DNA of 35,306 nucleotides from Chloroflexota bacterium (GTDB lineage Bacteria; Chloroflexota; Anaerolineae; Anaerolineales; VGOW01), in NCBI GenBank assembly GCA_016197225.1, contig JACPWC010000061.1:1-35306 (forward strand), given 5' to 3'. The notes under the pieces are model-generated. The model was not told where the DNA came from, searched no databases, and saw only the letters and a list, made by a program, of their open reading frames with translations. This document shows, piece by piece, positions 2,929 through 23,796 of this stretch. A program made the translations under genes and the position numbers. Numbering within the stretch: position 1 is the stretch's first letter; each line of letters opens with the position of its first letter.

Positions 2929-2956
2929 TTCGGCAGTTTAATTCAGGAGAGTGAAG

Positions 2957-3412
2957 ATGACTCACAAACGCCTATTTAGTTTTCTAATACTGTTGGGGCT
3001 GGTATTTGCCGGCGGGCTGACGAGCGGGTGCAGTGCGCCGCAGGAGCATGAGCTGATGATGGCCTCGCTCGACCAGATGCCGCCCGAAGTGCAGAACGAG
3101 CCGGAGCGCACCCGGCAGGCCTACCAGTTCGCCGTCGCTAACCCGGACGTGATGCAGCATATTCCGTGTTACTGCGGCTGTGACAACCTGGGCCACACCA
3201 ACAACTACGTCTGTTATGTGGCCGGCGTGGACGCGGCGGGCATCATCAAGTTCGACTCGCACGCCATCGGTTGCCCCATTTGCGTTGACATCACCCAGGA
3301 TGCCATGAAGATGCTCAGGCAGGGCAAGAGCACTGCCGAGATCAAAACATACATTGACACGATGTACGCCAAATACGGCCCGTCGAACATGCCTGCGGAG
3401 AATGTGCCATGA
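2957..3412 (+). CDS. PCYCGC-motif lipoprotein
   Basis: The product has 151 residues. A lipoprotein signal is clear: MTHKRLFSFLILLGLVFAGG, then LTSGCS with the lipobox cysteine, so the protein should be anchored outside the membrane. The mature part carries the family motif IPCYCGCDN (about residues 72-80) and two further cysteines in AIGCPICVDI, plus histidines (HTNN, DSHAIGC), suggesting a metal- or redox-active site; function in this family (PF13798-type) is not established. The ATG at 2957 is preferred over GTG 2951 because CAGGAG (2944-2949) is spaced 7 bases from it and directly abuts the GTG. It overlaps the next gene by 4 bases (ATGA), implying translational coupling to the putative selenoprotein. 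Confidence 0.85.
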   Translation: MTHKRLFSFLILLGLVFAGGLTSGCSAPQEHELMMASLDQMPPEVQNEPERTRQAYQFAVANPDVMQHIPCYCGCDNLGHTNNYVCYVAGVDAAGIIKFDSHAIGCPICVDITQDAMKMLRQGKSTAEIKTYIDTMYAKYGPSNMPAENVP

Positions 3413-3897
3413 GCCAGAAAAAGAAACGAACCGAGTCGCGGCGCGAGACTGCTTCGCGCTGGCCGATGTTGTTTGTGATGGGCGGACTGTTGCTGGTCGG
3501 GGTCGCCGCCGTTTTGTTGTGGGGGGCGTTTACGACACCCAAAGCTTCCCCTGAAGTGACGGGTTCCCCGAAACTCAAAGTGGATCAGGAGAAAGTTGAT
3601 CTTGGCGACGTGCCGCTTGGTCAAACAGTGGAAGTGTCGTTTGAGCTAACCAATGCTGGCGACCGGCAGTTGCGTTTCACCGACGTGCCTTACGTTGAAG
3701 TTGCGGCAGGGTGTTGACCGCCCAAACCGGCCATCGGTTCGATGGCCCTCAACCCCGGTGAAACCACAACAGTTTCGATGCAATTCATGATGCACGGCGA
3801 CATGGGCGGCATGCACGACTTCCGCCTGCACTTGGAAACCAACGACCCCGCCCAGCCGGATCGCACGGTGACGGTGCTTTCGAATTGGGTGCCGTAA
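3409..3897 (+). CDS. DUF1573-like membrane-anchored protein, putative selenoprotein (UGA at 3715)
   Basis: An upstream frame of 102 codons ends at TGA 3715-3717, but the same frame continues without a stop to TAA 3895-3897, giving 162 residues. The N-terminus is basic with one transmembrane helix (MLFVMGGLLLVGVAAVLLWG). The rest is an immunoglobulin-like DUF1573-type domain: VDLGDVPLGQTVEVSFELTN before the UGA, then ALNPGETTTVSMQF, RLHLETNDPAQPD and VTVLSNWVP after it. The UGA lies directly after Cys102 in a G-C-U-P-P context; related proteins, from memory, have G-C-C-P-P there, so a Cys-to-Sec exchange fits. A hairpin follows at 3729-3747. UGA is a normal stop elsewhere in the window (for example 697), so read-through as Trp is unlikely. 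It overlaps the PCYCGC gene and probably forms an extracytoplasmic redox pair with it. Alternative: nonsense mutation or read error. Confidence 0.8.
3729..3747 (+). promoter_or_regulatory. Putative bacterial SECIS hairpin for UGA 3715
   Basis: GGCCATCG (3729-3736) pairs perfectly with CGATGGCC (3740-3747) around the loop GTT; a 7-bp form with loop GGTTC is equally possible. The stem starts 11 bases after the UGA and the loop G lies 18-19 bases after it. Known bacterial SECIS elements lie within the coding region just downstream of UGA and have a G in the first two loop positions, bound by SelB. This fits that rule. Confidence 0.7.
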
Positions 3898-7300: not shown

Positions 7301-7542
7301 CCCGCGAGTTCGTCCGCCGCGTGCAAGACCTGCGCAAGTCCGCCGGACTCGATATCGCCGACAGGATCGTCGCGCGCTACACCGCCTCGCCCAAACTGGC
7401 TGAGGCCGTGACCGCCTGGGCCGACTACATCAAAGACGAAACGCTGTGCGTGGACTTGGCCGCTGGTGAATTGGCCGATGCCGCAACTGCCGAAGACTCG
7501 TTTGATGGGGAGAGAGTGAAGATAACGTTGGCGAAGAGTTGA
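4399..7542 (+). CDS. ileS: Isoleucyl-tRNA synthetase
   Basis: The protein has 1047 residues, as in the longer IleRS type (class Ia). It joins isoleucine to tRNA-Ile in the cytoplasm. The class I signatures are GPPTANGKPGSHHVLA (HIGH-like HHVL at 57-60) and KMSKS at about 598-602 in DGFKMSKSKGN. The editing domain lies between, with VWTTTPWTLPGN and TGIVHQAPAFG. Two Cys pairs (CARCG, CWRCG) are present in the insert. The anticodon-binding and long C-terminal domains follow, ending in VKITLAKS. Expression is controlled by the Ile-specific T-box just upstream. The last 57 codons are repeated in diverged form at 8400-8570, on the far side of a toxin-antitoxin module. The gene itself is intact. 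Confidence 0.97.
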   Translation: MFQPVSPKLDIQKLETDVLNFWKRENVFQKSMDNRKSGQRYVFYEGPPTANGKPGSHHVLARAFKDMFPRFQAMRGKYVLRRGGWDTHGLPVEIEVEKQLGFNGKEQIEKYGIAEFNARCRKSAFDYIQDWERMTERIGFWVDLKTAYVTYENEYIESVWWILKQFWDKGLLYQGFKVVPYCARCGTPLSDHEVSLGYQEDTEDPSVFVRFPLKDEPGTSFLVWTTTPWTLPGNVALAVHPDVLYLKVERKTGENGSTEKLIIAKDLADKVLGEGQYTVVGDYKGKELKGKRYNPLYSFLPFEGKAHYVVLGDFVTTDDGTGIVHQAPAFGADDMKMANENDLPVLMTVDSRGTFVEAVTPWRGTWVKDADPMITRDLDDRGLLFKAGTYLHTYPFCWRCGTPLLYYARTTWYVETTRYKKQLNDLNDTINWVPDHIKHGRFGNWLENNIDWALGRERYWGTALPVWVDDDGDQLCVGSVAELSGLAGRDLSDLDLHRPFVDDIVFPNPKTGKPMRRVPELIDVWFDSGAMPVAQWHYPFENKEMFEEQFPADYICEAIDQTRGWFYSLHAIATLLFDSVSFKNVICLGHILDGDGFKMSKSKGNIVDPWSVLNANGADAFRWYLYTASPPGNSRRFSVDLVGEVIRNFTLPLWNTYSFFVTYANLANWKPSADVGQLTALDKWILSELHTLVADVSEAYEHYDVTAATRPIEKFVDDLSNWYLRRSRRRFWKSESETDKAAYSTLYECLVTVAKLLAPAMPFMSDALYRNLVASVDPTAPESVHLADWPTSLLLRVDEKLMDDMRVVMRSASLGHAARAKANRKVRQPLSEAAFSAPTPAEAAAVRAYADLLADELNVKAVTVLDHAEDAVTYSLNPLPKQLGQKHGARFPKIKAALLSGDQTVFARALLSNQGVVVEVDGESITVLPGEVEVRQNARGGYVVAEEGGYLAALKTELTDELVREGLAREFVRRVQDLRKSAGLDIADRIVARYTASPKLAEAVTAWADYIKDETLCVDLAAGELADAATAEDSFDGERVKITLAKS

Positions 7543-8308: not shown

Positions 8309-8399
8309 TCAAGGTGGGAGAAGCAAGACGATGAACATGGCACATCTGGCCTTGACTAGCGAAGGACGGCGCTTGGTTTTACACTGCTAGCAAGCTTAC

Positions 8400-8570
8400 G
8401 TGCGTTACACGGCTTCACCAAAACTGGCCGAAGCGGCGGCCGCCTGGGCCGACTACATCAAAGACGAAACGCTGTGCGTGGATTTGGCCGCTGGCAACTT
8501 GGCCGATGGCGCGACTGTTGAAGATGTGTTTGACGGTGAGACGGTGAAGGTGATGTTGGCGAAGAAGTAA
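8400..8570 (+). pseudogene. Duplicate of the ileS 3' end (57 codons)
   Basis: The frame reads VRYTASPKLAEAAAAWADY and onward to VKVMLAKK and TAA. It aligns without gaps to the last 56 residues of IleRS (7372-7542), with about 45 of 56 identical. There is no start codon, ribosome site or rest of the gene. The fragment lies directly beyond the TA module, so the order is ileS end, antitoxin/toxin (reverse), ileS end copy. The divergence is too high for a recent tandem duplication of the resident gene, suggesting that one of the two tails came from another strain or species. Confidence 0.9.
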
Positions 8571-8663: not shown

Positions 8664-11600
8664 ATGTCTACCATCCAAATCTTTTTGCTTGGCCGTTTTG
8701 AAACAGTTTGCGGGGAGAAAGTTCTGCGCGCCCGCGACTGGCCTCGTCGCAAAGCCGCCGCCCTTCTTCAACGCCTCGCCCTCAGCCGCCGTTTGCTGAG
8801 AGACGAGGCGATTGATTTCCTCTGGCCGGACGCCGACTCTGCTTCTGGCGCGAACAACCTCTATCGGACACTGCACGCCCTGCGCCAAACTTTGGATACT
8901 GCCCTCGGCCCCGGGACGGCTGAGGCCGCCTTTGCCTTTACCGATGGCGCGCTTACCCTGACCGATTCGGTTTGGGTGGACGCACACGAATTTGAGAAGC
9001 AGGCGCAAGCCGCGCTCATCAATCCTCAATCGCCAATCTCTCATCTCGAATCGGCTATCGAACTCTACACAGGAGATTTATTGCCGGATGACGTTTACGC
9101 CGACTGGTTGGCCGCCCCCCGCGAGTCCCTTCGCCGTTTGCAGCGCGAAGCGCAATTAAAGTTGGCCGTCCACAATCGTGATGCGGGCGACTATGCCAGC
9201 GCCCTCGCTCTGCTCACGCCGCTGGTAGTGCGCGACAGGGCCGATGAAGTTGTGCACCGTGAACTGATGCGGACGTATGCCCTGGCCGGCCGCCGCCACG
9301 ACGCTCTGCGCCAATATCAGGCTTGCGTGGACGCCCTCGCCGTCGAACTCGATGTCCCGCCAGAGCCTGAGACCGCCGCTCTCTATTCACAAATCCTCAG
9401 CGGCGACATCGCGCCGCCTTCACTAATCTCCTCCTCTCAATCTCTACAGTCTCTCAATGCCGAAACGGAAGAACAAGCCACACCATTGGTGGGGCGCGAG
9501 TCGGAATTGGAAAGTCTGCGCCTGTGGTTGCGAACCGCGTGGCGCGGGCAGGGCAAGGTCATCCTCATCACTGGCGACTCCGGCGTAGGTAAAACCCGGC
9601 TCGCCCTGGAAGCGCGGCGGGTCGCCGCCTCTGCCGGAATGACGACTCTCTTCGGCGCCGCCTATGAGCAAGAGGGGCAATTGCCCTATCAACCCTTCGT
9701 CGAAGCCTTCGACGATTTCCTCAGCCAATCACCGCGCCTGCCCGACGGCGTCGAGCCATCCAATCCCATCACCCACTTCAAACGGTTGGGCGTCAGCGAT
9801 CCTCAACAGGAAGGCTGGGCGCAGTTCAAGGCGGTGGCCGACTTACTCGGCGCATTGAGCCAACCCGCGCCAGTTGTGCTTTTGCTCGACGATCTCCACG
9901 CCGCTGACGAGGCCAGCCTGCGCCTTCTCCATTATCTCGCCCGCCACGCCCGTACTGCGCCGGTCGTGTTGATGGCAACCTGCCGAACCGATGTATCGCT
10001 GTCATCATCATTCGGGACTCTGATCAATGCCCTGTATCGTGAACGATTGAGCGAGTCGCTGACTCTGGCTCCTCTGTCCGCCGAAGCGACGACATATGTG
10101 CTGGCGCAGGAACTCGGCGGCGAACCGTCTCCGGCGCTGGTGGCCGTCGTTTACGACCTGACCGAGGGCAACCCGTTCTACATTCAAGAGATGGCGCGGA
10201 CATTGTTGAAGGATGATCGCGTAGAAGCGCGCGATGGGCAATGGCATCTGACAGCGGGCGATCAGAATCTGAAAATGCCTGCCGGGCTGAGCGGCCTTCT
10301 GCACGAGCGTGTGGCTCGCCTCGGTTCTGAAGTGGAAACGACGCTTATTGCTGCCGCCGTGATTGGCCGCGAGTTCAGCTTTGGCGTGCTTCGCGGAATC
10401 GTGCCTCTCCCGGACAGCAACCTGATTGCCGCGCTGGATGCCGCCCTCGCCACTCGCCTGCTCGACGAGAGCGAATACGGCTATCGCTTCAGGCATCCCC
10501 TCATCCGCCGTGAGTTGTATGACTCGTTGAGCCGTGTGCGCCGCGCGCGCCTGCACAGCCAGACTGCCGAGGCGATTGAGTCCATTCAATCGCGGCAACC
10601 GGGAGGTGTCCGAGACATCGAAGCGTTGGCTTTCCATTACGATTTGAGCGATCGCCGCGATCGCGCACTGCCGTATTTGATTCAAGCCGGGCAGAAGGCG
10701 GCGAGTGTCTACGCCTTTGAGGTGGCAGTGGATTATTTTGAAAGGGCGCTGGCATTGATGGAGGCGCTGGACACGGAGGCGGGCACCCAACGTTGGATGG
10801 TGCTGGAATCGCTGGGCTGGTGGCACACCATCCTCGCCGACACCCCGCAGGCCGTGAAACGCTTTGAGCAGGCCGCCGCCCTCCCGCCCACCGACCGCTG
10901 GCAATCCGGCAAGCGCGACCGGGCGCGCGTTCATCGCGGCGCGGTGATGGCATTGGTCACAGCCGGAGATATTACAGGGACCGAGGCCCATCTGCGAGCC
11001 GCGTTAGCCGAAGTGGATGAGAAAGAAGACGCCGCCGAGTATGCGCATGTGCTTTACAACGTCGCGCAGGTGCATTGGCACCGGGGCGAATATCAGGAAG
11101 CCTTCAACGCGGCGCAACATAGCCTCAACGTGGCCGAGCGCCTCAACGACTCAACAGCTATCGCCCGCGCTTTTGAAATGCTGGCCCTGGCCTGTCATTC
11201 GTTGGGCGAGTGGCAGGATGGTCTGCGTTTCGAGGCCCAACGCGCCACGCTGGCCGGTTCGGGCCTCGATGTCACCGAGGCCTTCGACGTTCACCTCTGA
11301 CTGTGGGAGTATCACCTGTATGGTGATAAAGGTTACGAAGAGGTCAAGCGCGCAGTCAGCACCACCCTGGAGCAGGCCCGGCGGATGGGCGCGCCCCGGG
11401 CTATTGCCCTCTGTCGCTGCTTCGACGGCGCGCTTGAATTTCAGGCCGGCAACTGGGACGCCGCCGAAGCCTCCCTCCGCGAGTCCATCCGCCTGCACCG
11501 TGAGATCGGCGCGGCTTCGGGCGAAGCCCTGGCCTGCCAGCGGTTGGGCGTTCTCCTCACCGCGCGTGGCCGTTTGGATGAAGGCAAAATGATTTTGGAG

Positions 11601-12074
11601 GAAGGCCTCATCGCCGCCGAACGCGCTCTTCTCCGCGCCCACTGCCTGACTCGCCTCTACGCCGCATTGGCCCGCAACCGCCTCTCGGCGGACGACCTCG
11701 CCGCCGCTGATGAGGCGCTGGCGCAAGGGCTGGCGATGAGCGAGCGTCACGGCCATTGCACCACCTGTGATGCCCTGCTTCTCCCCGCCGCCATCAGCCT
11801 CCGCGCCGCCCAACGCAATTGGTCTGCGGCGGAAATGTTCTGCCATCAACTCGATAAAGCCGCCGCCGAGTATGGCAGTCGCACTTGGTTGGCCATGGCC
11901 CGCCAGTCTCGTGGTGAACTGGCGGCGGCCCGTGGTCACACCGAAGAAGCCCTCGCCTACTGCGCCGAAGCACAATCGGCCTTCGCCCTCGCCGGCAACA
12001 CTGCTGAAGCCGAGCGATGTCGGGCCATGATTGCCGCGCTCCGACCAGTTGAGTCGCTGGACAAAGCCTCGTAA
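8664..12074 (+). CDS. BTAD/AAA-ATPase/TPR transcriptional regulator, putative selenoprotein (UGA at 11298)
   Basis: The frame encodes 1136 residues if TGA 11298-11300 is read through as residue 879. Order: winged-helix DNA-binding domain (about 1-80), BTAD helical domain (about 95-250, with HRELMRTYALAGRRHDALRQYQ), a linker, an AAA ATPase with Walker A GDSGVGKTR (about 303-311) and Walker B VVLLLDDLHAADEA, then a long TPR region to the end. This is the SARP/MalT-like architecture of signal-integrating activators. The UGA falls inside the TPR region (FDVHL-U-LWEYHLYGD); the downstream 258 codons continue the TPR pattern in the same frame without a gap, and a SECIS-like hairpin follows at 11310. 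Family members probably have Cys there (recalled, not checked). ATG 8664 is chosen over GTG 8646. It likely controls the downstream OsmC/methyltransferase genes. Alternative: gene split by a nonsense mutation. Confidence 0.8.
11310..11328 (+). promoter_or_regulatory. Putative bacterial SECIS hairpin for UGA 11298
   Basis: TATCACC (11310-11316) and GGTGATA (11322-11328) pair perfectly around the loop TGTAT, with G as the second loop base. The stem starts 9 bases after the UGA and the loop G is 17 bases beyond it, nearly the same geometry as the hairpins at 3729 and 13489. Confidence 0.65.
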
Positions 12075-12159: not shown

Positions 12160-12203
12160 CCACCTCCCACAGCGTTTGACTTGTGGGAGGTGGTTTCGTT
12201 TTT
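12160..12203 (+). terminator. Rho-independent terminator of the regulator gene
   Basis: CCACCTCCCACA (12160-12171) and TGTGGGAGGTGG (12182-12193) form a 12-bp perfect stem with a 10-base loop, followed by TTTCGTTTTT. It separates the regulator transcript from the OsmC/methyltransferase operon. Confidence 0.85.
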
Positions 12204-12243
12204 CTGAGCCGGTGAGAGTCAGGGTGATGGGAGGTCACTCATC

Positions 12244-12287
12244 TATAGTGCCTTCATCAATTCGGAGAAGTTAGATACAAAAAGGAG
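12244..12287 (+). promoter_or_regulatory. Possible promoter and ribosome site of the OsmC/methyltransferase operon
   Basis: TATAGT (12244-12249) is a plausible -10 element; no good -35 is seen, as expected for an activator-dependent promoter. Just upstream GTGATGGGAGGTCAC (about 12222-12236) is an imperfect inverted repeat and could be an operator. AAAGGAG (12281-12287) is a strong ribosome site 7 bases before ATG 12295. Confidence 0.4.
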
Positions 12288-12294
12288 ATAAACC

Positions 12295-12861
12295 ATGACT
12301 ACCGCAACTGCAACCACCATCGTCAACGGCGTCAATGTCGATCAACTCATCGGCACGATCAACGCCATCAAGGCCAACCCCGACCTGGCTCGATTCAGGT
12401 TTCGGGCCGAGACCGAGTGGGTGGATGGCGGCCACTCGCGCACCGAGATCCAAAGTTTCTACGGAGCCGGACAGGAAGATACCTCACGTAATCAACTGTT
12501 CGTGTTGGAAGGCGACGAGCCGCCCGTCCTGTTGGGGGCGAATGCCGGGCCGAACGCGGTCGAGGCCGTCCTCCATGCTCTGGCTTCATGTTTGAGTGTG
12601 GGCTTCATCTACAACGCCGCCGCTCAGGGCATCAGGGTGGACAGCCTGGCCTTCCGGTTGGAGGGGGACATTGATCTGCACGGCTTCCTCGGCCTCTCCG
12701 ATAAAGTGCGCCCCGGTTATCAGGGCATACGACTCTCTTACCGGGTGAAGAGTAATGCGCCCCGTGAGAAACTCGAAGAACTCTGCGAGTACGTCCAGAA
12801 AACATCGCCGGTGCTCGACATCATCCGCAACCCCGTGCCGGTCACTATCAATCTGGAGTAA
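12295..12861 (+). CDS. OsmC-like thiol peroxidase-fold protein
   Basis: The product has 188 residues. The OsmC/Ohr fold shows in LGANAGPNAVEAVLHALASCLSVGF, where the first active-site cysteine (about residue 101) lies at the start of the long helix, and in KLEELCEYVQKTSPVLDIIRN, which carries the second cysteine. In this family the two cysteines reduce organic peroxides or handle reactive thiols; OsmC-like proteins found next to methyltransferases are often of unknown substrate. It is the first gene of an operon: only 2 bases separate its stop from the start of the putative selenoprotein methyltransferase. Both its cysteines are ordinary TGT/TGC codons, unlike the UGA in its neighbour. Confidence 0.9.
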   Translation: MTTATATTIVNGVNVDQLIGTINAIKANPDLARFRFRAETEWVDGGHSRTEIQSFYGAGQEDTSRNQLFVLEGDEPPVLLGANAGPNAVEAVLHALASCLSVGFIYNAAAQGIRVDSLAFRLEGDIDLHGFLGLSDKVRPGYQGIRLSYRVKSNAPREKLEELCEYVQKTSPVLDIIRNPVPVTINLE

Positions 12862-12863
12862 CG

Positions 12864-13655
12864 ATGAGCACTCTACAAGCCACCCCCAAGCTCTCGCTGG
12901 AAGAGTTACGCCTAGAGATTCAGAAAGAATACACCGGCGTTGCCTGTGACCCAAACAAGGGCTATCACTTTCACACGGGCCGCCGCCTGGCCCCGTTACT
13001 TGGCTACGACGAACAATGGTTTGCCCACCTGCCAGAGGGCAATATCGCCTCCTTCGCCGGGACGGGCAACCCGTTCGCTGCCGGCCTTGTCCACCCCGGA
13101 GAAACAGTCGTGGACATCGGCTCTGGCGCTGGTTTCGATTCGCTCATCGCGGCGCAGATGGTCGGCCCGGCTGGTCGGGTTGTCGGGATTGATATGACAC
13201 AGGAGATGCTGAGGAAAGCGCGAGACGGGGCGACGCGGCTGGAAGCGACCCAGGTTGAATTCCGCCAGGGCTATGTGGAAAGCCTGCCCCTGCCGGACAA
13301 CTTTGCCGATGTCGTCATCAGCAACGGTGTGCTTAACCTGACGCTGGACAAAGTCGAAACCCTGCGCGAGTGGGGGCGCGTCCTCAAACCGGGTGGGCGT
13401 TTGCAGATAGGCGATATCCTGGTCGAGCGTCCGGTTCCCGCTGGCGCGCTGAACGACATCTCGCTGTGGACGGGTTGAATTGCTGGTGCTCTGCTGGAAG
13501 CAGAGTTGATCAGCGCCGTGCGCGCCGCCGCTTTTGAAGAAGTGCAAATCGTACACAGGCACGAGCACCTCTACGAAGATGTCCCTGACCCTTCGAGTGC
13601 GCCGGAGTTTGGCACACAGGGCATCACCTTCCGAGCACGCAAACCCAAGACGTAA
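12864..13655 (+). CDS. ArsM-like SAM methyltransferase, putative selenoprotein (UGA at 13476)
   Basis: The frame gives 263 residues with TGA 13476-13478 read as residue 205. The N-terminus carries [17 protein letters not shown]. The SAM-binding core is [16 protein letters not shown] and [17 protein letters not shown], followed by [26 protein letters not shown] and [13 protein letters not shown], all typical of arsenite-methyltransferase relatives. The position of the [18 protein letters not shown], corresponds to a conserved cysteine (C-I/L-A/G-G-A-L) that binds As(III) in ArsM. The other ArsM cysteine (SNC) is Gly here. The 59 codons after the UGA keep the frame to TAA 13653, and a SECIS-like hairpin follows at 13489. 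The substrate may be a metalloid or a thiol compound; not provable here. Alternative: nonsense mutation. Confidence 0.83.
13489..13505 (+). promoter_or_regulatory. Putative bacterial SECIS hairpin for UGA 13476
   Basis: CTCTGCT (13489-13495) pairs exactly with AGCAGAG (13499-13505), loop GGA, extendable by one G-U pair. The stem begins 10 bases after the UGA and the first loop G is 17 bases beyond it, which meets the bacterial SECIS spacing and loop-G rule. Confidence 0.7.
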
Positions 13656-21045: not shown

Positions 21046-21384
21046 TCAGGCAACTTTGCCTGGCCTTTTAGCCTTCGCGCTCTTTTGACGAGTAGCCGGT
21101 CGAACAACATCCCAAACAGCGTCAGGATGTTTTGCCGCCACTTGCAATAGAACACGCGCCGGGCCTTCTGGCATTCGACGGCCCTGTTCCCAGTTTCGCA
21201 AGGTTTTTACGCTGATACCGAGCAACGCGGCGAACTCATTCTGTGACAGCTGATAATAGGCGCGAACACGCTTGATGTTTGGCCCGTCCACAACAAAGGC
21301 GCGCGAAGGGGTGACCGCGCCACGCAGTATTGCGCCGCCTTCCCGTGCGCTAGCCACCAACTCATTGAACAACTCTTCTTTCAT
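21046..21384 (-). CDS. XRE-family antitoxin (HigA/NadS-like)
   Basis: The product has 112 residues. The helix-turn-helix lies at about 38-75: IKRVRAYYQLSQNEFAALLG, then ISVKTLRNWEQGRRMPEGPA, a classic XRE domain in the form found in C-terminally extended antitoxins. The C-terminus ends in a lysine-rich tail (KSAKAKRPGKVA). It follows the toxin gene with a 4-base overlap (toxin first), as in higBA-type systems. It should neutralise the toxin and repress the promoter at 21709-21737. It converges on glmS. Confidence 0.88.
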   Translation of the reverse strand: MKEELFNELVASAREGGAILRGAVTPSRAFVVDGPNIKRVRAYYQLSQNEFAALLGISVKTLRNWEQGRRMPEGPARVLLQVAAKHPDAVWDVVRPATRQKSAKAKRPGKVA

Positions 21385-21698
21385 GGATATTCGTCCTCGA
21401 CAATCGTTCGCAATAACTTGAGTTGAGCGGCGGATAAATCATCGCGTTCGTTCTTGGGGTACACGAACAGCATGAGCAACCGTTCCTGCTTGACCGCCCA
21501 ATAGTAGATGACTCGCGCTCCGCCTCGTTTGCCACGTCCTGCTATTGCCCATCGTATTTTGCGTAAACCGCCACTGCCTTTGATGAGGTCTCCGGCGCTG
21601 GGGCGGTTGGCTAAGACAACCTGCAACTTGCGGTACTCATCGTCCGTCAGCAGTTCCAATACCTGCCGGGTGAACACTGAAGTTTCGACGATGACCAT
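21381..21698 (-). CDS. RelE/HigB-type toxin
   Basis: The product has 105 residues from ATG 21698, MVIVETSVFTRQVLELLTD, followed by LQVVLANRPSAGDLIKGSGGLRKIRW, RGKRGGARVIYYW, LLMLFVYPKNERDDLSAAQ and LLRTIVEDEYP. This is the RelE-superfamily pattern (DLI.G..GLRK.R, GKRGGAR.IYY, Y.K....DL), a ribosome-dependent mRNA endonuclease in characterised members. An upstream in-frame ATG at 21737 exists, but the -10 element at 21714-21709 lies between the two, so 21698 is the likely start, almost leaderless. Confidence 0.9.
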   Translation of the reverse strand: MVIVETSVFTRQVLELLTDDEYRKLQVVLANRPSAGDLIKGSGGLRKIRWAIAGRGKRGGARVIYYWAVKQERLLMLFVYPKNERDDLSAAQLKLLRTIVEDEYP

Positions 21699-21708
21699 AC
21701 TTGAGCCA

Positions 21709-21737
21709 ACTATACGCCAATGGCGCATACCTGTCAA
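21709..21737 (-). promoter_or_regulatory. TA promoter with embedded palindromic operator
   Basis: On the minus strand TTGACA (21737-21732) and TATAGT (21714-21709) are separated by exactly 17 bases, near-consensus. The spacer contains TATACGCCAATGGCGCATA (21711-21729), a palindrome with one mismatch, suited to a dimeric XRE repressor, which suggests autoregulation by the antitoxin. Confidence 0.8.
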
Positions 21738-22214: not shown

Positions 22215-23796
22215 CTAGCAGTTTGTCGGAGAGAAAAGTCGAAATATGTTTTTCGAAGCGGATCATAGGTAACTACAGGTCGTCAATGGCCGACTGGCAG
22301 GTCATACATGTGCATTTCGTGGGTTCAACCGCTCGTTTTTCTGGCAACAGGCGCGTTGAAGAATCCTCTTAGGCAACCAGCAAGACATGCAGACGTTTCA
22401 AGTTGAAGGCCAAGCAAACCAGGCCCCACTCGCCCGCCGCCGCGGCCAAACCGCGCAAGGAGAACTGGCGAAAGCCCAGGACTTCTTTGATAATGCCAAT
22501 GACTGGCTCGACGGTACATTTGCGCAAGCGATAAATGGCTTGACCGATTTCGGTCTGAAGTTGGTAGGCCATTTTAACCGTCGGGCTGGCATCGTCCGGC
22601 GGCGGGGTAGGTTGTTCAGCAAAGTAGGCCCGCCAGTTTTGATGATGAGAAGTCTCCCGGCCGGTGGCGATATAAGAGTCAATCCCGCGCGCTACCATAC
22701 CCGCGATGTTGGCCGCACTAAAGAAGCCGTTGTCCAAAGCGGCCGCTTGGGGTTTGCCAACTTCCGGGGCGATCGCGTCCAAGGTGGGCAACGCTTCGCC
22801 GTCATCAGGGGGATGGTTGGAGAGGGTGTTAGCGACAATGAGAAAACTGTCTTGGGTCACCGCCACCTGAGCGTTGTAATGCTGGTCAAAGCCTTGATTG
22901 GTGCTGTTCTTCATTATCCGCGAATCGGGATCGGTAAAGTTGTACTGGTCCTTGTCTCGCGGCTCTGGGGTCGGCGGTTTTGGAGCGCGCCCGTGCGGTT
23001 TACGTTTCATTTTCCGAGCTTTTTCGTCACGGGCCCGGACTTTGGCATCGTAGTCGTCTTTCTCAGCTTGGTACCGTTCCTGGGCGCGGGCTTGCAACAC
23101 CGCTTTGGCTTGGGCCAGGTTCGTCAGCCGCTCCTGGCGCAGGGCGATTTCATCCGGGATGACCAATCCGTCCGGCAACTGCCGGTCACCCTGGTCGGCT
23201 TGTTCACCCAGGGCCAACAAGTCATGCACCTCCTGGCGCAATTGGACTTCCAGTTCCAGCAGACGTTTGTAACTGACGGCTTGGCTCTTGGAAGCATCGG
23301 CATGAATTTTGCTCCCGTCCAAACTGAGATTGCCGAGTTTCAATACTTGGGCGGCCTGAGCCAAGAGCAGAATTTGCACGAACAATTCTTGGATCTCGAC
23401 CAGAAAAGTTTTGCGAAAATTAGCCAGGGTGTCATGATCCGGATGCCAGTTCCCGGCAATGAAGCGAAAGGGCAAGCTTTCGTAAGTGGCCTTTTCGATC
23501 TTGCGGGAACTAAACACGCCGGTGGCATAGCCATAAAACAACAACGCCAGCAGAATGTCTGGCGCAAAGGCTTCACCGCCCACTGGCGCATAACGGGCAT
23601 ACAGCGCGCCCAAGTCCAGTTGCGCTACTATATCGACGACGAACCGCGCCAAGTGATTGGGCGGCAGGGCCTCTCGTAAACTTACGGCCAGATCGAGTGT
23701 TGCTTCATAATCAGCGGTTTTGAATTTTCGGGTCATAGACAAAGTGTATCACTGCTTCAACTCGGAAAGGCAGGGGCCTCTCCGACAAACTGCTAG
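22215..23796 (-). mobile_element. Complete IS1182-like insertion sequence with CTAG target duplication
   Basis: Terminal inverted repeats CAGTTTGTCGGAGAG (22219-22233) and CTCTCCGACAAACTG (23778-23792) are perfect over 15 bp. Both ends are bordered by CTAG (22215-22218 and 23793-23796), which is either a 4-bp target duplication or, being palindromic, part of 19-bp repeats; restoring the host reading frame favours duplication. The element proper is 1574 bp with a single transposase gene. No other copy is visible in the window. Confidence 0.92.
22369..23742 (-). CDS. IS1182-family transposase
   Basis: The product has 457 residues, apparently intact. The N-terminal DUF772 domain reads FVVDIVAQLDLGALYARY, LLALLFYGYATGVFSSRKIEKATYES and FRFIAGNWHPDHDTLANFRK (quoted in part), the standard start of IS1182/IS5-group DDE transposases. 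The DDE domain follows: LSLDGSKIHADASK (first Asp), a charged coiled insert rich in Lys/Glu/Arg (about 190-260), AAALDNGFFSAANI (second Asp region), and VEPVIGIIKEVLGFRQFSLRG with the catalytic Glu region, ending AFNLKRLHVL. It catalyses movement of the element that disrupted the membrane-protein gene. Start at 23742 (ATG); a second ATG lies two codons on. Confidence 0.93.
   Translation of the reverse strand: MSMTRKFKTADYEATLDLAVSLREALPPNHLARFVVDIVAQLDLGALYARYAPVGGEAFAPDILLALLFYGYATGVFSSRKIEKATYESLPFRFIAGNWHPDHDTLANFRKTFLVEIQELFVQILLLAQAAQVLKLGNLSLDGSKIHADASKSQAVSYKRLLELEVQLRQEVHDLLALGEQADQGDRQLPDGLVIPDEIALRQERLTNLAQAKAVLQARAQERYQAEKDDYDAKVRARDEKARKMKRKPHGRAPKPPTPEPRDKDQYNFTDPDSRIMKNSTNQGFDQHYNAQVAVTQDSFLIVANTLSNHPPDDGEALPTLDAIAPEVGKPQAAALDNGFFSAANIAGMVARGIDSYIATGRETSHHQNWRAYFAEQPTPPPDDASPTVKMAYQLQTEIGQAIYRLRKCTVEPVIGIIKEVLGFRQFSLRGLAAAAGEWGLVCLAFNLKRLHVLLVA

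Follow-up and report, generated by a model that had tools for sequence, protein, structure and literature searches.

A probable selenocysteine-containing SARP-type activator beside its putative target operon in Chloroflexota

The window analysed here, a stretch of 35,306 nucleotides from a Chloroflexota bacterium, carries a SARP/BTAD-AAA-TPR regulator frame (8664-12074) with a single in-frame TGA at position 11298, and the decoding of this UGA as selenocysteine 879 (Sec879) is strongly supported by comparison with related sequences. Indeed, the conserved UGA, the exchange between Sec and Cys, the hairpin and the decoding machinery together make up the usual comparative evidence for a selenoprotein. 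Very probably, the protein acts as a Sec-containing SARP/STAND activator of the neighbouring operon, with both the Sec insertion and the DNA binding being predicted from sequence.

Results

Reading frame and domain organization of the regulator

The frame is open from GTG 8646 or ATG 8664 to TGA 11298-11300 and then on to TAA 12072-12074. A preliminary description of this DNA had reported a frame that stops at this TGA and continues behind it, which is correct apart from the numbering: counted from ATG 8664, the interrupted codon is residue 879 and the downstream part amounts to 257 codons and a stop. The features of the gene are the following.

8664-12074, + strand: predicted Sec-containing SARP/BTAD-AAA(STAND)-TPR regulator of 1136 aa, counting TGA 11298 as Sec, based on the frame, Pfam and 16 species with UGA
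8664-9398, + strand: N-terminal SARP unit, with a predicted winged helix (about residues 1-100) and BTAD at 105-245 (PF03704, E=3e-21)
9483-10463, + strand: AAA_16/STAND ATPase (NOD) switch domain with Walker A GDSGVGKT (PF13191, E=1e-23, residues 274-436)
11298-11300, + strand: TGA as putative selenocysteine 879 in the motif FDVHL-U-LWEYHLYGD, the column being TGA in 16 species and TGC/TGT in 5 relatives
11310-11328, + strand: putative bSECIS hairpin UAUCACC-UGUAU-GGUGAUA, based on bSECIS constraints, MFE with shuffles and invariant codons
11757-11768, + strand: CxxC (Cys1032, Cys1035) of the TPR sensor region, from an 18-row alignment

PF03704, PF13191 and TPR_12 all score over their cut-offs, in the SARP-NOD-TPR order of large SARP regulators. 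The winged helix was deduced from the helices and strands of an AF2 model, from which the extent of the NOD past residue 436 was also taken. According to Pfam, the TPR array starts before the TGA and carries on behind it, the 257-codon C-terminal extension being TPR in character (PF17874 TPR_MalT, E=1e-9; PF13424). With the AfsR model of NCBIfam, the alignment covers residues 8-317 and the score stays far under the cut-off, and a fold search with the model of the whole regulator returned the STAND-TPR protein 6mfv as top match.

Just upstream of the regulator gene, the ileS 3' end is present twice (7371-7537 and 8399-8565, 83% over 167 bp), and this duplication around about 860 bp is apparently the trace of an insertion or rearrangement.

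The UGA column among relatives

At column 879, UGA is found in 16 Chloroflexota species, Cys (TGC/TGT) in 5 genes and nothing else, as the preliminary description had anticipated in expecting either Cys or UGA from homologues. Among 400 genomes of the order, the regulator gene was found in the species of the window and in five more, six in total, each copy containing a single TGA, and a scan of 84,980 species gave eleven loci, all from Chloroflexota and with the TGA at one column in FDVHL*LWEYHLYGD. Four more species with TGA, of which two are 39-41% identical and belong to other families, came from searches of the phylum and the class, and so did the five Cys genes. The latter are those of G481 (TGC; 62% across the C-terminal half), G410, G437 and G761 and an additional copy in G1034 (TGT). 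Two distant local matches that lack the conserved motifs of the subfamily (L098 and L129) were left out of these counts. The Cys homologues run through column 879 as one uninterrupted chain. Furthermore, the Cys ortholog of G481 is nested within the UGA clade of the tree, with modest support, as expected for a change from Sec to Cys.

Most of the regulator copies come from draft or MAG assemblies. At locus L078 (isolate H5_CFX7), the C-terminal part of the regulator is frameshifted from position 11222 onward, and this genome appears to be the same as G1034, which also bears a Cys paralog of the regulator.

A bSECIS-like hairpin and its codons

The hairpin described earlier, of 7 bp with a G in the loop and 9 nt behind the TGA, is indeed present in the sequence. 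Its stem closes a 5-nt loop, UGUAU, with G second and then U, and the distance from the TGA to the apical loop is 16 nt. It folds at -12.1 kcal/mol (z -3.2), a stability equalled by 0 of 200 shuffled sequences. The bSECIS model specifies a loop of 3-9 nt, a stem of 4-16 bp, a G in the first two loop positions, a distance of 16-37 nt from the UGA and an MFE <= -7.5 (PMC13188914), and the window hairpin falls within every one of these published constraints.

Codon choice singles out the same stretch. Across 11 UGA orthologs, the 281 informative columns have a mean codon identity of 0.41 and only 4 are invariant, all of them within the hairpin (TAT CAC CTG. GGT). The synonymous conservation of a six-codon window over the hairpin was equalled in 0 of 20,000 column shuffles of the gene, and pS is 0.21 over the hairpin codons versus about 0.75 elsewhere. 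The pN/pS ratio is 0.32 before the hairpin, 0.35 just behind it (codons 889-907) and 0.31 far behind, and this similarity on both sides of the UGA indicates that both are translated and constrained. Decayed halves of a pseudogene, which the preliminary description had named as a possible refutation, are thus not what is found, the ratio being alike before (0.32) and after (0.31) the TGA.

The hairpin varies among orthologs: it is weak at L068 (-5.8 kcal/mol), L070 has a better alternative fold, and the outermost pairs are lost in some copies. No compensatory base changes in the stem were found among the orthologs because coding constraint freezes it, and without usable covariation the argument for the hairpin is drawn from the codons. 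In the Cys form of G481, the YHLYGD residues are kept and the stem is broken (CAC>CAT, CTG>TTG, GGT>GGC). The Cys paralog of G1034 retains the hairpin codons, so that a rule by which the hairpin is lost in Cys forms, true of G481, fails for this paralog and was discarded.

Selenocysteine machinery and other selenoprotein candidates

The genome from which the window derives encodes tRNA-Sec, SelA, SelB and SelD. A true tRNA-Sec was detected in 11 of the 12 tested genomes with the regulator; in the remaining one, the MAG L075/G403, tRNA-Sec was not found and SelA is present. As SelA is common in the order (320 of 400 genomes, 80%), presence of the machinery alone says little and is necessary rather than decisive, and co-occurrence with SelA was dropped as proof of Sec for being uninformative at this frequency. 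The genome's own SelD (G000:C37:1757-2695, L121) contains one in-frame TGA, and Sec-containing SelD is a listed selenoprotein family.

Elsewhere in the window, a DUF1573-like protein (3409-3897), assigned to its family by eye, has an in-frame TGA at 3715-3717 (VAAGC-U-PPKPAIGSMALNPGE) and is probably a further selenoprotein of a listed family; directly ahead of it lies a PCYCGC-motif lipoprotein-like ORF (2951-3412). At 21046-21737 and 22369-23742 on the minus strand, a toxin-antitoxin-like pair (HTH; RelE/HigB-like) and a transposase-like ORF were recognized by eye.

A SARP-type promoter and the operon behind the regulator

Behind the regulator gene, a terminator-like hairpin divides the regulator and downstream transcription units, the latter beginning with a candidate SARP-type promoter.

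12160-12204, + strand: terminator-like hairpin (ACCACCTCCCACA...TGTGGGAGGTGGTTTCGTTTTT) that follows the regulator, read from the sequence
12218-12249, + strand: SARP-type promoter with heptads GTCAGGG (12218-12224) and GGGAGGT (12229-12235), 8 bp, and -10 TATAGT (12244-12249)
12295-12861, + strand: probable target gene 1, encoding an OsmC-like protein of the Cys form (PF02566, E=1e-18), 71-81% identical to the neighbour copies
12864-13655, + strand: ArsM-like SAM methyltransferase with TGA 13476-13478, probable target gene 2, with a read-through frame in all neighbour copies

The binding sites of SARPs are direct repeats that lie 11 or 22 bp from each other, of which the 3' one is located 8 bp from the -10 element (PMC10936776), and the window promoter fits this geometry exactly (11 bp, 8 bp), with imperfect repeats. 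The common pattern upstream of the downstream operon is GTAAGRT-N4-GGGAGGT-N8-TATNNT. A matrix built from seven loci that share the site in register independently located it in L068, L072, L078, L074, G481 and later L124, always just behind the regulator gene, with scores of 24-42 versus 12.5 for the next best (298 kb). The site persists at L074 and in the Cys form G481, where other genes follow, and it is the sole exact match in the 4.8-Mb genome of the window. A genome-wide regulon was considered and rejected, since there is one exact operator only; the rest have 3 mismatches, and a backward control also had 3 such matches. As a site with the SARP layout lies just behind the regulator gene, the regulator most likely activates the OsmC/ArsM(Sec) operon locally, through predicted DNA binding.

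The OsmC-like and ArsM-like genes both follow the regulator in the window and at L069, L072, L073, L075, L076, L077, L078 and G686, while only the methyltransferase is present at L068 and only the OsmC-like gene at L070. Neither was found at L074 or at the Cys-form loci examined, several of these loci being near contig ends.

The ArsM-like methyltransferase with its in-frame TGA resembles a known Sec family and is probably a second selenoprotein. Its UGA is followed by a hairpin, CUCUGC-UGGAA-GCAGAG, with 16 nt to the loop as judged by eye, and for the window copy, a stable, more extended stem over those bases results from RNA folding. Against NF008823 the protein scores 216.7 bits and does not reach the cut-off of 263, for which reason it is called ArsM-like only. 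ArsM has a catalytic Cys at a place where this protein and its neighbour homologues have Gly (SNGVLNL or SNGVINL); hence, arsenite need not be the signal and the substrate of the enzyme may not be arsenite.

The surroundings of the regulator at L074 are metal-related (HMA-type P-type ATPase, ArsR, PpoB2, DUF1326), as are those of the Cys paralog of G1034 (an ORF resembling an HMA-type ATPase), and genes for an ArsR-rhodanese protein and an MFS transporter occur in the vicinity of L068.

Predicted Sec879 and a conserved CxxC in the sensor region

The placement of the Sec in the sensor region, as first proposed, was right, residue 879 being inside the TPR part. In the 18-row homologue alignment, columns 879 (U/C), 1032 and 1035 are the only Cys/Sec columns kept in all the rows that cover them. 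The earlier idea of a redox or metalloid switch gains support from this co-conserved CxxC and from the metal(loid)-related neighbours. In two AF2 models, with mean pLDDT values of 81 and 83, Sec879 falls within a TPR helix and the CxxC lies at the beginning of a helix four repeats further along. The confidence of both models is lowest at about 866-885 even though conservation is highest in this stretch, a hint of some non-TPR feature. A three-ligand metalloid site made of Sec879, C1032 and C1035 would be an attractive possibility. However, canonical TPR geometry would hold the two groups apart, and their separation by about four TPRs in the models counts against assuming a single shared site. 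The signal itself may be soft and thiol- or selenol-reactive, such as a metal(loid), an organometal or an oxidant, a suggestion that we regard as tentative and somewhat below even chances.

Discussion

Several other readings of the interrupted frame have to be weighed against selenocysteine. Readthrough of the UGA without selenium, by leaky termination or by a near-cognate Trp or Cys tRNA and with the hairpin acting merely as a stimulator, could be favored by the base after UGA 11298, which is C, UGA-C being a leaky termination context. Nevertheless, this is very unlikely because relatives that lack the UGA always have Cys and never Trp, the hairpin conforms to the bSECIS rules, tRNA-Sec, SelA, SelB and SelD are all encoded, and a second UGA gene, similar to a known Sec family, is adjacent. 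A real stop would leave a short SARP-NOD-partial-TPR regulator cooperating with a separate TPR protein restarted at Met 11385. Such an arrangement would agree with the invariance of Met908 in the 11-row ortholog alignment, and a truncated product is to be expected whenever Sec insertion fails. Yet codons 889-907, between the hairpin and Met908, are equally constrained (pN/pS 0.35), which argues that they are translated, and the Cys homologues form one through-running chain; two separate proteins were discarded on the strength of this constraint, and we consider them highly improbable. As for an assembly error or a pseudogene, the predominance of draft and MAG copies and the frameshift of L078 further downstream might speak for it, but an identical TGA in 16 independently assembled species and equal purifying selection on either side refute it, and its probability is practically negligible.

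A last alternative overlaps with the main explanation and rivals only its sensing part: Sec would be real and serve selenium gating alone, with no sensory chemistry. Such gating would be logical given that the probable target operon encodes a UGA-containing enzyme. We nevertheless find gating alone unlikely, as the replacement of Sec by Cys only in relatives and the retention of the CxxC argue for chemistry at residue 879.

For the favored reading, a Sec-containing activator of the neighbouring operon, the following mechanism can be proposed. SelB and tRNA-Sec, aided by the adjacent bSECIS hairpin, would decode UGA 11298 as Sec879, giving a full protein that, by its sequence, consists of the SARP DNA-binding unit, a nucleotide-dependent AAA_16/NOD switch and a TPR sensor with Sec879 and the CxxC. 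The TPR sensor would react with the soft thiol- or selenol-reactive signal and thereby free the switch, and the freed SARP unit would bind the two heptads of the osmC-arsM(Sec) promoter and recruit RNA polymerase. If residue 879 is Sec, full-length synthesis would be selenium-dependent and, with the sensor half encoded after the UGA, this selenoprotein operon would have its complete regulator only when selenium is available. The NOD and TPR domains of AfsR keep its SARP unit inhibited (PMC10936776), so a truncated regulator could be silent or unregulated. In such a scheme, Sec879 and the CxxC would form a selenol sensor and UGA decoding would be selenium-conditional, so that a single protein would combine the supply of selenium with a signal of toxic or redox nature in switching on the selenoprotein operon; we give this integrated version a little less than an even chance.

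The regulator shares with AfsR and the large Streptomyces SARPs the SARP-NOD-TPR domain order and the promoter geometry, with repeats 11 bp apart and 8 bp between the 3' repeat and the -10 element (PMC10936776). It differs from them by its occurrence in Chloroflexota instead of actinomycetes, by the Sec in its TPR region and by its probable target, a metal(loid)/redox-type selenoprotein operon. An AAA_16 switch followed by a TPR superhelix is likewise found in STAND ATPases with TPR sensors (MalT; 6mfv), whereas the present regulator has Sec and a CxxC in the sensor and an N-terminal SARP output unit, the output of MalT being a C-terminal LuxR helix-turn-helix.

Known bacterial selenoproteins, including Sec-ArsM (UxxG) and OsmC-like proteins, resemble the regulator in the UGA, the bSECIS-like hairpin and the Sec/Cys exchange, but a regulator of the BTAD/AAA/TPR type is absent from the selenoprotein lists of PMC9312934 and PMC13188914 (119 families). 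Moreover, NCBIfam 20.0 has no family over its cut-off for this protein, and the open-access literature gave only chance matches for a Sec-containing BTAD regulator, so the earlier statement that no characterized selenoprotein is known in this regulator class stands for these sources. Most of the listed selenoproteins are enzymes, transporters or proteins that bind metals or have redox roles, with the FmdB family as sole regulatory entry (PMC9312934, PMC13188914).

The finding suggests that annotation pipelines are likely to split such regulators into two truncated genes. A conserved Sec in a DNA-binding activator, which here comes with a predicted operator and a target operon, would represent a new role for selenocysteine, namely signal sensing in transcription.
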